This document shows, in pieces, positions 38,826-42,156 of a stretch of 61,424 bases of DNA. The notes under the pieces are model-generated. The model was not told where the DNA came from. It worked only from the letters and a program-made list of their open reading frames with translations, and ran no database searches. Location of the stretch: assembly GCA_017544005.1 (NCBI GenBank), contig JAFYEZ010000027.1:1-61424 (forward strand), written 5' to 3'. Origin of the DNA: Bacteroidales bacterium. GTDB taxonomy: Bacteria; Bacteroidota; Bacteroidia; Bacteroidales; UBA932. Positions within the stretch are counted from its first letter, which is position 1. Every line of letters starts with the position of its first letter. Position numbers and translations under genes: made by a program.

Positions 38826-39362
38826 ATGGACTACGTCTTTCACTACGATTCCCCGCTTGGAGGAATCACGATGGGTAGTGACGGCGAGGCGCTCGTCGGA
38901 CTTTGGTTCGACGGGCAGAGGTATTTCGGAAATACACTTCATCCCCAGTTTATGACGGTGGACCTGCCCGTTTTCAGGGAGACCCGGCGATGGCTGGACC
39001 TTTACTTCCGCGGACAGGACCCAGGATTCACGCCAAAACTGGTTATGCGGGCCTCCCCTTTTCGCAAAGAGGTCTGGGAAGCATTGATCGCCATCCCTTT
39101 CGGCGAGACGGTGACCTACGGAGAAATAGCCGCCCGGATCGCCGCCGGGAGGAGAATCGCAAGAATGTCCTCACAGGCGGTCGGCGGAGCGGTCGGGCAC
39201 AATGCCATCTCCCTGATTATCCCCTGCCACCGGGTCGTCGGAACGGATGGCTGCCTGACAGGATATGCGGCCGGCCTCGACAGAAAGCTCCGCCTCCTCC
39301 AATTGGAAAACGCCCAAGGATTTGCGTCCGGGAACCCACGTGCTGCCCACGTCCCGTTTTGA
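38826..39362 (+). CDS. ogt: Methylated-DNA-protein cysteine methyltransferase
   Basis: This 178-residue suicide repair protein transfers alkyl groups from O6-alkylguanine to its own cysteine. The active site IIPCHRVVG holds C134. The DNA-binding helix FGETVTYGEIAARIA and Asn hinge (AVGHNAISL) are present. The usual end of the family, LLQLE, is at residue 161. The remaining 17 residues are extra, and the last 8 (PRAAHVPF) and the TGA are supplied by the left repeat of the RAYT locus. The start at 38826 (MDYVFHY) lies 4 bases after the previous stop. Confidence 0.92.
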   Translation: MDYVFHYDSPLGGITMGSDGEALVGLWFDGQRYFGNTLHPQFMTVDLPVFRETRRWLDLYFRGQDPGFTPKLVMRASPFRKEVWEALIAIPFGETVTYGEIAARIAAGRRIARMSSQAVGGAVGHNAISLIIPCHRVVGTDGCLTGYAAGLDRKLRLLQLENAQGFASGNPRAAHVPF

Positions 39363-39419
39363 GGGACGATAGAAGCAAAAACGGCTCAAAATGCTGCCCA
39401 CGTCCATGATTTCGGGACG
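39337..39419 (+). repeat. REP-like paired-hairpin repeat, left copy
   Basis: This 83-bp unit is identical to 40773-40855 and in the same orientation. It contains two half-units, each opening TGCTGCCCACGTCC. The first forms a hairpin CGTCCC-GTTTTGA-GGGACG, the second CGTCC-ATGATTTCG-GGACG, with about 23 bases between them. It covers the last codons and stop of ogt. Confidence 0.9.
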
Positions 39420-39511
39420 AGGGAAGCAACCTGCGTCAATCTGTTTTTTTGAAAAACGATTTATATTCAAAAACGGTTAAAATCGCTGTTTCAAAACTCT
39501 GGAATCCATTC

Positions 39512-39519
39512 TACCTTCG
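39512..39519 (+). promoter_or_regulatory. Promoter -7 box of the RAYT-partner operon
   Basis: The sequence TACCTTCG (TAnnTTCG variant) lies 31 bases before the ATG at 39551. Other elements in 39420-39550 are a T7 run (39444-39450) and an AT-rich stretch; no gene is seen there. Confidence 0.45.
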
Positions 39520-39550
39520 CCGTGTCAACACCTAAAAACGTGCGAACGAA

Positions 39551-39904
39551 ATGAAAAAGATTCTTGAAGTGCTCCAGTATGGAGAAGCAGATATCCGATT
39601 CCACACGGATATCAAAAGTGACAGAGATTTACAACAGATCCCCGCCCTTGCCGCCCAATGCGCATTTACTATGGTAACCCGACTGTGGGGCGGCAACGAA
39701 CGCGGTGTTCTTGCCGCTATCCGCGCCTTGGCCCTAGCCGACCTCGCAGCCAGTGCAAAAAGAAAAGAAATGGTGAAACATCTCGATGAAGAGTCAGGGC
39801 ATCTTGCGGGTATCTTGCGAGAAACGATCGAGACATTTAAAAAACAGGGCGGAAAAGTGCAGGTATTCGGGCCGGGCGTCCCGCCACCGATGGAAAAGAG
39901 TTGA
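39551..39904 (+). CDS. Unrecognised 117-residue protein paired with the RAYT-like transposase
   Basis: I do not recognise this family. The protein is predicted to be almost wholly alpha-helical: an N-terminal MKKILEVLQYGEADIRFHTD, a central helical stretch with LWGGNERGVLAAIRALALAD, and a Lys/Glu-rich amphipathic helix, then a short Gly-Pro tail (VFGPGVPPPMEKS). There is no signal peptide. Its base composition is clearly less GC-rich than neighbouring genes. It ends 4 bases before the transposase gene, and both lie between identical repeats. A role as accessory or control factor for the transposase is inference. Confidence 0.75.
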   Translation: MKKILEVLQYGEADIRFHTDIKSDRDLQQIPALAAQCAFTMVTRLWGGNERGVLAAIRALALADLAASAKRKEMVKHLDEESGHLAGILRETIETFKKQGGKVQVFGPGVPPPMEKS

Positions 39905-39908
39905 TACA

Positions 39909-40769
39909 ATGGCTTTCATTCTCATTTCCACCGCGCATCTTCGTGAAGGACTCTGGTTCAAGGATGATGACGATTATCGGGCCGGAATGAACTATGTTGC
40001 CATCGTTTCTTTTTTGCTGGGGATTCCTGTCCTTGCTTTTGTCCTGATGTCCAACCACGTTCACATGGTCCTTGCATGCAGCGAGAAAGAAGCGATGGCA
40101 TTCATTTCTGCGTACAAAAAACTCTATAGCTATTATTATCGCGTCAAATACAACCATAAAGAGTTCCTCAGGAAGAATGGATGCGATTTGAGGAGCCTCT
40201 CCCAGGACGACGAGTCGCTTGAGAGGGCCATCGCCTATGTGCAGATGAATCCAGTCGCCGCCAATATCTGCCTGAATCCCACACAATACCCATGGGGGAC
40301 CGGAACATCGTTCTTCGATATGCGCCCTGAGGCAGGCGAGTTGCTGGGAGAGTATTCGTTCCGTCAGCAGATTCGCCTGTTTCATAGCAAAGTCCGTCTT
40401 CCCCAAGAGTATCGTCTTGAGAATGGACACATTCGGCCCCGGTCATTCGTCAAGACACAATGGGTCGAGGCCATCTTCCGAACGCCTAAAAGAATGCACT
40501 ATTTTCTGGTCAATTCCTCCAAGGCAAAGAGCCGCATTGAAAACAGGGAACCCTTCCTTCCCGCCTTTCGCGACCAGAGCCTCGCCGCTTCCATGACAGA
40601 TCTGTGCCGGTCGCTTTTCGGCCAGGAAACGATGGAGAATCTCGCCCGGGAGCAGCAGGCCGAAGTCATACGACAGTTACGGTATCGCTTCGGTGCGGAT
40701 ATCGTTCAGGTTTCCCGCGTTTCAGGCATCCCCTACGAAACGGTGTGCCAATTCATCGATACGTATTAA
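39909..40769 (+). CDS. RAYT-like (REP-associated tyrosine transposase, IS200-like Y1) protein
   Basis: This 286-residue protein has the Y1-transposase/HUH core: FILISTAHLREGLWF, the HUH-type metal motif LMSNHVHMVL (H50, H52) and the helix AIAYVQMNPVAANIC, whose Y110 is the likely nucleophile. YPWGTGTSFF follows. The C-terminal part ends with a helix-turn-helix-like IVQVSRVSGIPYETVCQFI. It is flanked by inverted-repeat-bearing direct repeats but has no IS200 ends, as expected for domesticated RAYTs. The GC content is lower than in neighbours, suggesting transfer. Confidence 0.82.
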   Translation: MAFILISTAHLREGLWFKDDDDYRAGMNYVAIVSFLLGIPVLAFVLMSNHVHMVLACSEKEAMAFISAYKKLYSYYYRVKYNHKEFLRKNGCDLRSLSQDDESLERAIAYVQMNPVAANICLNPTQYPWGTGTSFFDMRPEAGELLGEYSFRQQIRLFHSKVRLPQEYRLENGHIRPRSFVKTQWVEAIFRTPKRMHYFLVNSSKAKSRIENREPFLPAFRDQSLAASMTDLCRSLFGQETMENLAREQQAEVIRQLRYRFGADIVQVSRVSGIPYETVCQFIDTY

Positions 40770-40772
40770 GTT

Positions 40773-40870
40773 CACGTGCTGCCCACGTCCCGTTTTGAGG
40801 GACGATAGAAGCAAAAACGGCTCAAAATGCTGCCCACGTCCATGATTTCGGGACGCTAAGAGCACTTGGG
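40773..40870 (+). repeat. REP-like paired-hairpin repeat, right copy
   Basis: Bases 40773-40855 are identical to the left copy (39337-39419). A further 15 bases (CTAAGAGCACTTGGG) are shared in diverged form with the third copy. It begins 3 bases after the RAYT stop codon, so its hairpins could also end the transcript. The remaining 40 bases before the YhfC stop hold nothing else I can name. Confidence 0.9.
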
Positions 40871-41724: not shown

Positions 41725-41754
41725 GCGACATTCCGGTATAATACAAAAATGGAG

Positions 41755-41848
41755 TGCTGCCAGCGTCCCGTTTTGAGGGACAGTAGGAGCAAAAACGGCC
41801 CAAAATGCTGCCTGAGTCCCTGATTTCAGGACGCTGGGAGCACCTGGG
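41755..41848 (+). repeat. REP-like paired-hairpin repeat, diverged third copy
   Basis: It has the same order as the other two copies: TGCTGCC...GTCCCGTTTTGAGGGAC, GAGCAAAAACGGCCCAAAA, TGCTGCC...TGATTTCAGGACGC, then GAGCACCTGGG. Substitutions leave both hairpins possible, and the second becomes stronger through CCTGA/TCAGG. It lies in the direct orientation upstream of the YhfC gene, not next to a transposase gene. Confidence 0.85.
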
Positions 41849-41950: not shown

Positions 41951-42085
41951 ACCAAAACCCAAAGTGAGCGCACCGCAGAGCGGTGCAAGCTGTTTTCTAT
42001 TTCTGAGCCGAGCCGAAAGCTAGCTTTCGCACGGCTCAGAAATAGAAAAAGCAGGACTGGCGTCCTGCTCACTTTTGGTTTTGGT
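41951..42085. repeat. 135-nt element with 19-bp inverted ends enclosing three hairpins
   Basis: The left end ACCAAAACCCAAAGTGAGC (41951-41969) pairs with the right end (42067-42085) with one mismatch. Between them lie a 7-bp hairpin (41970-41986), an 18-bp stem (41993-42010 with 42032-42049) whose loop holds the 16-bp palindrome CGAAAGCTAGCTTTCG (42014-42029), and a 7-bp hairpin (42051-42068). The right end overlaps the 3' ACCA of the tRNA gene. It could be a MITE-like element or a branched RNA; no coding potential. Confidence 0.85.
42046..42068 (-). terminator. Intrinsic terminator of the initiator tRNA gene
   Basis: On the minus strand GCAGGAC-GCCA-GTCCTGC is followed by TTTTT (42050-42046). 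It starts 13 bases past the tRNA 3' end and has a standard stem, tetraloop and U-tract. It is also one of the three hairpins of the 135-nt element. Confidence 0.85.
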
Positions 42086-42156
42086 AGCGGGGGGAGGATT
42101 CGAACCTCCGACCTCCGGGTTATGAGCCCGACAAGCTACCACTGCTCTACCCCGCG
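42082..42156 (-). tRNA. Initiator tRNA-fMet (CAU)
   Basis: The 75-nt gene has the anticodon loop CTCATAA. The stem has three successive G-C pairs (GGG 29-31 with CCC 39-41), the hallmark of initiator tRNA. The acceptor CGCGGGG pairs with CCCCGCT except for an unpaired C1-U72, again an initiator trait. D arm GAGC-AGTGGTA-GCTT, T arm GGAGG-TTCGAAT-CCTCC and an encoded ACCA end are present. A well-spaced promoter lies upstream and a terminator downstream. Confidence 0.95.

Follow-up and report, generated by a model that had tools for sequence, protein, structure and literature searches.

A probable REP-RAYT system with a lineage-specific partner protein in gut Bacteroidales

In the genome of a Bacteroidales bacterium (GTDB lineage Bacteroidota; Bacteroidia; Bacteroidales; UBA932), a gene for a RAYT-like HUH/Y1 protein and a gene for a 117-residue protein, here termed p117, lie between two identical direct repeats built of paired hairpins. 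We interpret this locus, with a probability of about 0.8, as a chromosomal REP-RAYT system that in these gut Bacteroidales includes a second, lineage-specific protein. It is an atypical rather than a canonical REPtron-like system, with a foot that is not of the GTAG type, and its new part is p117, a conserved neighbor of RAYT genes that had previously not been modeled. RAYTs themselves are described in PMC8049555 as domesticated transposases that are passed on vertically and have no precisely known function. The features considered below are located in the window, i.e., the whole stretch of 61,424 nucleotides that was analyzed (assembly GCA_017544005.1, contig JAFYEZ010000027.1):

39337..39419, + strand: upstream repeat, copy 1, a REP-like double unit of 83 bp, 100% identical to copy 2
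39341..39377, + strand: half-unit 1a, a TGCTGCC...AGCA hairpin (pattern match, 0 mismatches)
39392..39428, + strand: half-unit 1b (pattern match, 0 mismatches)
39551..39904, + strand: p117, the 117-residue partner gene; conserved neighbor of RAYT, modeled with a beta hairpin and three helices
39909..40769, + strand: RAYT, a 286-residue HUH/Y1 protein (S48-N49-H50-V51-H52, Y110, N114), from NCBIfam, Foldseek and alignment
40773..40855, + strand: downstream repeat, copy 2, 83 bp, 100% identical to copy 1
40777..40813, + strand: half-unit 2a (half-unit pattern match)
40828..40864, + strand: half-unit 2b (half-unit pattern match)
41755..41791, + strand: half-unit 3a, of a third, separate repeat copy (repeat comparison and pattern match)
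41806..41842, + strand: half-unit 3b, of the third repeat copy (half-unit pattern match)

The RAYT enzyme and its flanking repeats

The preliminary description of this DNA had recognized the larger protein as an HUH/Y1 enzyme by HVH at residues 50-52 and a tyrosine at position 110. Alignment upholds this, as S48, N49, H50, H52, Y110 and N114 are invariant across 32 aligned RAYTs, and the Pfam Y1_Tnp domain was found in 28 of these 32 relatives at E 0.1 or better. The NCBIfam model REP_Tyr_transpos matches the window protein with an E-value of 2.9e-9, at 37 bits and hence under that model's curated cut-off of 80. When its structure model (pLDDT 87.0) was compared with Foldseek, IS608 TnpA (2vic) and the E. 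coli REP transposase (4er8) were both recovered with probability 1.00, at E-values of 1.3e-3 and 1.5e-3, respectively, and none of the 1059 matches stood at E 0.001 or below. By sequence and model, the window RAYT retains the single-strand nuclease fold of the HUH/Y1 enzymes together with its catalytic residues. In its C-terminal half, the protein is helical and gives weak helix-turn-helix matches (HTH_PafC in 8 of the 32 rows, best E 0.0067). Both genes are less GC-rich than their surroundings, as had been noted earlier (RAYT 51.1% and p117 51.4%, versus 59.2% for the window).

The enzyme's sharing of its fold with IS608 TnpA, and the identical 83-bp ends, which suggest recent movement or conversion, could also be accommodated by an active IS200/IS605-type insertion sequence with a passenger gene. 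We regard this as very improbable: several near-identical copies would be expected of such an element, whereas the window RAYT is present once in its own 86% complete assembly, where the nearest other RAYT is 49% identical, and it had no match in 72,556 plasmid records. The dN/dS of the RAYT is likewise low (0.075 for clade B, 28 pairs). More broadly, 33 of 40 genomes of the genus contain RAYT matches with E-values of at most 0.001, up to 13 per genome.

The repeats enclosing the two genes are 100% identical over 83 bp, and, as claimed in the preliminary description, each copy comprises two hairpin half-units. These are 37 bases long, lie 51 bp apart, and take the form TGCTGCC-NNN-GTCC-loop-GGAC-N6-AGCA, which confirms for the window unit the TGCTGCC foot without GTAG. 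The third copy (41754-41833, 86% identity, with half-units reaching 41842) had escaped that description; it is situated upstream of a yhfC-like gene and has no RAYT of its own. The stretch over which the flanking copies are identical sets in 4 bases ahead of the first TGCT and breaks off 9 bases short of the end of the last AGCA, such that it is offset from the palindrome. This offset (39337-39428 versus 40773-40864) might mark the end of a strand transfer or conversion.

The spacer between half-units is AAAACGGCYCAAAA in all three window copies and of the TTTTGGNCCG type, the reverse complement of AAAACGGCYCAAAA or near to it, in the five other printed paired or part-paired copies. Folding with RNA parameters yielded one long hairpin in 4 of 4 folded units, while DNA parameters yielded one long hairpin in 3 of these and two hairpins in 1. 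Three base pairs of the half-unit are not fixed by the search pattern. Across the genus (62 distinct half-units at 65 places), 147 of the 186 cells at these positions are paired, against a mean of 111.0 in shuffles, 0 of 5000 of which were as high; for the half-units of the own genome alone, 25 of 45 are paired versus 27.2 in shuffles, i.e., without excess. Downstream in the window, a long inverted repeat around GAGCCGAGCCGAAAGCTAGCTTTCGCACGGCTC (41985-42055) is found near a tRNA-like gene at about 42080-42155, the latter judged by eye.

Dispersal of the repeat and known systems

The earlier REP-RAYT reading was to fail if the repeat occurred nowhere else in the genome. In the 1.57-Mb, 50-contig own assembly, a search with the half-unit pattern, allowing up to 3 mismatches, hits 16 places, and the reversed control pattern 0. 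These places account for 21 strand hits, as palindromic sites can score twice, and include seven pairs with exact 51-bp spacing (on contigs C1, C19 three times, C30, C31 and C34). Sixteen places are nevertheless far under the copy number of more than 100 given as usual for REPs in the cited part of PMC2817692.

The association of the repeat with the transposase, the other point at issue in that reading, holds as enrichment and fails as exclusivity. Taking as clade-A genomes, i.e., those with a RAYT of the window clade, the 12 of 40 genus genomes with a RAYT match at E about 1e-38 or better, the pattern is present in 9 of 12, as opposed to 9 of the 28 others, with 64 versus 20 strand hits (p 0.018 by the Fisher test and 0.0013 by the Mann-Whitney test, both uncorrected for kinship); part of these 3-mismatch hits in the genus look like chance matches. 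Two genomes, G034 (7 hits, 84% complete) and G015 (4 hits, 87% complete), bear repeats with no window-clade RAYT detected. Hence, within the genus the repeat is genuinely enriched with the window-clade RAYT yet not confined to it, and the earlier REP-RAYT reading withstands both of its checks, with limits.

Matching repeats were also found between the 1.5-kb flanks of 18 of 24 RAYT loci, in a comparison run without a control. Among loci with printed repeats, as read by eye, the GTCC...GGAC core is present in 8 of 9 clade-A loci, window counted, and an AGGT core, e.g., GGGCAAGGTC, in 16 of 16 clade-B loci. Upstream of four clade-B RAYTs that lack p117 (L172-L175) lie GGGGTAGGTC palindromes with GTAG within, while their p117-linked relatives have GGGCAAGGTC units. 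In one clade-B pair (L133), the short palindrome CGACCTAGGTC is repeated in series on both sides (178 bp, 94% identical). Most of the other RAYT-like genes of the own genome (L052, L053, L054 and L055, on contigs C32, C43 and C49) have repeats on both sides that are of different types and 91 to 150 bp long.

With the REPtrons of E. coli, Stenotrophomonas and Pseudomonas, the locus has in common an HUH/Y1 enzyme with a Y---NP context, palindromic units that flank the gene and recur as dispersed copies, a repeat type that tracks the enzyme lineage, and a single-copy gene under purifying selection. It differs from them in the lack of a GT[AG]G foot, in place of which stand TGCTGCC...AGCA and a GTCC...GGAC core; in having 16 half-unit places, not hundreds; and in the conserved second gene and the long C-terminal part of the RAYT. 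REP-associated TnpAY1 classes without GT[AG]G, namely 2.6 and 3, are described in the cited portion of Quentin et al. 2018 (PMC6006769). Given such precedents and the TGCTGCC foot seen here, our claim is for an atypical REPtron. According to the same portion, subclass 2.6 shares with our locus its presence in Bacteroidota and atypical repeats without GT[AG]G; membership is rejected on the table's 179 aa and YIH[QN]NP motif, compared to 286 aa and YVQMNP in the window RAYT. Subclass 2.1 shares the NHVH motif and a long C-terminal part with a possible helix-turn-helix; however, it has no REP-like sequences per that portion, in contrast to the repeat-flanked window RAYT. A DnaA-like C-terminal domain characterizes subclass 2.1; in this part, the window protein gave weak helix-turn-helix matches. 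The CGTC repeats, as presented in the cited part of Di Nocera et al. 2013 (PMC3733652), share a CGTCC...GGGACG core and count Bacteroidetes among their reported phyla. Compared by description, they have CGTC at one end, the window units having CGTCC inside the stem, and they are reportedly without a flanking transposase gene, whereas the window repeats flank a RAYT.

p117 as a conserved companion of RAYT genes

The two-gene content, which the preliminary description had thought new, proves to be so in that p117 is a conserved RAYT neighbor with no significant family match. In the window, the RAYT starts 4 nt past p117 on the same strand. p117 is present in 9 of 40 genus genomes, directly adjoining a same-strand RAYT in 9 of 9, and in 27 of 299 family genomes from 3 of 25 genera, always as a single copy; the one positive genome in the order sample (1/393) and in the phylum sample (1/395) is the own genome. 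A scan of named genomes recovered 60 p117 loci, all titled Bacteroidales or Bacteroidia and mostly from ruminant or horse gut, with one from Candidatus Cryptobacteroides onthequi. At these loci, a RAYT is directly downstream in 43 and directly upstream in 2, none was detected in 14 (by a profile search that covered mostly 3.6 to 6 kb of downstream sequence, and 1 kb at L170), and one lies at a contig edge. Together with four loci from the family sample (L106-L109; gaps of 41 to 146 nt), the RAYT-first order is seen six times. Both the solo and the reversed arrangements go beyond what had been described earlier.

The distance from the p117 stop to the RAYT start is -4 to +17 nt in 48 of 49 pairs, window included, and 121 nt in one, under a rule that begins 20 nt ahead of the p117 stop, accepts the first start codon reached and is therefore biased to short gaps; the start so chosen in clade B is a conserved Met of the alignment. 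Flanking repeats within 500 bp are present at 21 of 44 pair loci (22 of 45 rows, L169 being counted twice), with none seen at the other 23, none in 220 random control intervals of the same loci, and none at the 16 p117 loci that lack a RAYT downstream (14 solo, 2 RAYT-first). Pairwise distances of p117 and RAYT are correlated (r 0.70 for 39 clade-B pairs, 0.50 for all 45; 0 of 2000 permutations each), a correlation that may reflect only shared species descent. The genes flanking p117 vary from one locus to another. yhfC, the downstream neighbor in the window, occurs in 17 of the 40 genomes of the genus, the own genome counted; at 17 yhfC loci of relatives, searched with 1.5-kb flanks, none adjoined ogt, p117 or the RAYT, and no empty site was seen. 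That the p117 and RAYT genes belong together is, in sum, well supported.

p117 is a protein of 12.9 kDa with a pI of 8.8. Across 55 sequences, its invariant residues are M1, F17, T19, D20, M41, T43, L45, W46-G47-G48-N49-E50, R58, D64 and P108, and its model (pLDDT 87.1, pTM 0.73) has a beta hairpin (6-10, 14-18) and helices at 29-43, 50-67 and 71-98. Sequence searches returned nothing significant: Pfam gave scattered sub-threshold matches across the 55 members (best E 0.003, DUF7433, in 2 members), the PDB a best E of 0.59, and, for the window p117 alone, NCBIfam 0 families and PHROGs a best E of 0.076. The comparison of the model covered the PDB (best E 2.5 of 68 matches) and a viral fold library (best 0.73 of 197 matches), again without significance, with predicted cellular proteins outside its scope. 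In viral contigs, 41 pattern matches yielded 0 confirmed p117 proteins. No paper on a RAYT partner gene was found in the open-access library searched, a scope that does not take in the survey of Bertels et al. 2017.

Evolution of the pairing and a proposed role

In an IQ-TREE phylogeny of 70 RAYT rows, p117 pairs occur in 4 of 18 clade-A rows and in 42 of 42 clade-B rows, the latter having been fetched through p117; both clades are well-supported branches. Further pairs involve the divergent RAYTs L151, L161 and L164, and the presence of p117 on this tree needs 4 changes, 2 of them forced by starred branches. The p117 tree, with 13 of its 63 inner branches starred, comes from a sequence too short to resolve the count of partner changes. 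When the search is reversed and starts from the clade-B RAYTs of the genus, p117 lies beside 7 of 11. Its absence from the other 4 and from 14 of 18 clade-A rows indicates that the RAYT can do without p117. Genus genomes with p117 have 6 to 12 RAYT matches, versus 0 to 13 in those without (Mann-Whitney p 0.0017, uncorrected for kinship).

The converse also occurs. The flanks of L120 and L121, which have p117, RAYT and repeats, are about 89 to 94% identical to those of the solo loci L117, L125 and L165, in which the RAYT and repeats are missing and p117 is kept, with an in-frame gap in L165. Between solo copies, p117 dN/dS is 0.09 to 0.14, and the median for clade B is 0.17 (68 pairs). The low values of the solo copies imply that p117 does more than serve the neighboring RAYT. 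Three solo-p117 genomes have 11, 6 and 3 RAYT-like genes, counts that allow other RAYTs in the genome to be targets of p117. One metagenome assembly, RUG352, has two p117 genes (L117 and L166), neither with an adjacent RAYT.

These observations bear on two other accounts of the pair. The small upstream gene, its tight spacing and its basic product would suit a toxin-antitoxin-like pair with p117 restraining a harmful nuclease, but RAYTs without p117 are common, p117 alone persists under selection, and neither window protein was matched in PADLOC at E up to 1; we accordingly think this improbable. An account that fares only slightly better, and which we still deem unlikely, holds p117 to be an unrelated host gene whose 3' end is merely a favored site for the landing or retention of RAYT genes. 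The 14 of 60 loci with no RAYT detected, the single site shared by paired and solo loci, and the purifying selection on solo p117 all speak for it. Against this, the repeats stand outside the whole pair, upstream of p117 as well, at nearly half of the pair loci and at 0 of 14 solo loci; the genes around p117 differ; the RAYT precedes p117 at six loci; and the RAYT adjoins every p117 copy in the genus.

We therefore return to a REP-RAYT system with a second protein. By analogy with the biochemistry of E. coli TnpAREP, the RAYT would bind the folded single strand of the repeat, e.g., on the lagging strand, cleave at the foot via Tyr110 and rejoin the strand, with the repeats being copied now and then through such cleavage and rejoining. 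The anatomy of the locus suggests that p117 is produced together with the RAYT. As it accompanies RAYT clades with differing repeat cores, it probably works with the RAYT protein or its replication context, and not with any single repeat sequence, and it may modulate RAYT activity or targeting. After loss of the neighboring RAYT, p117 would keep a function, perhaps on other RAYTs of the same genome. More tentatively, and with the odds against the proposal as a whole, p117 might be the first dedicated protein partner of RAYTs. It would then have its own fold, would have been recruited by several RAYT lineages that differ in repeat type, and would act both in cis and in trans, such that REP processing in these bacteria would be a two-protein machine kept for the benefit of the host.

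p117, sometimes retained after the RAYT is lost, thus offers a gene to delete, tag or use as bait in the study of RAYT function. Further, the variation of repeat cores by RAYT clade within one bacterial family provides a natural series for studies of recognition beyond the proteobacterial models of the GTAG type.
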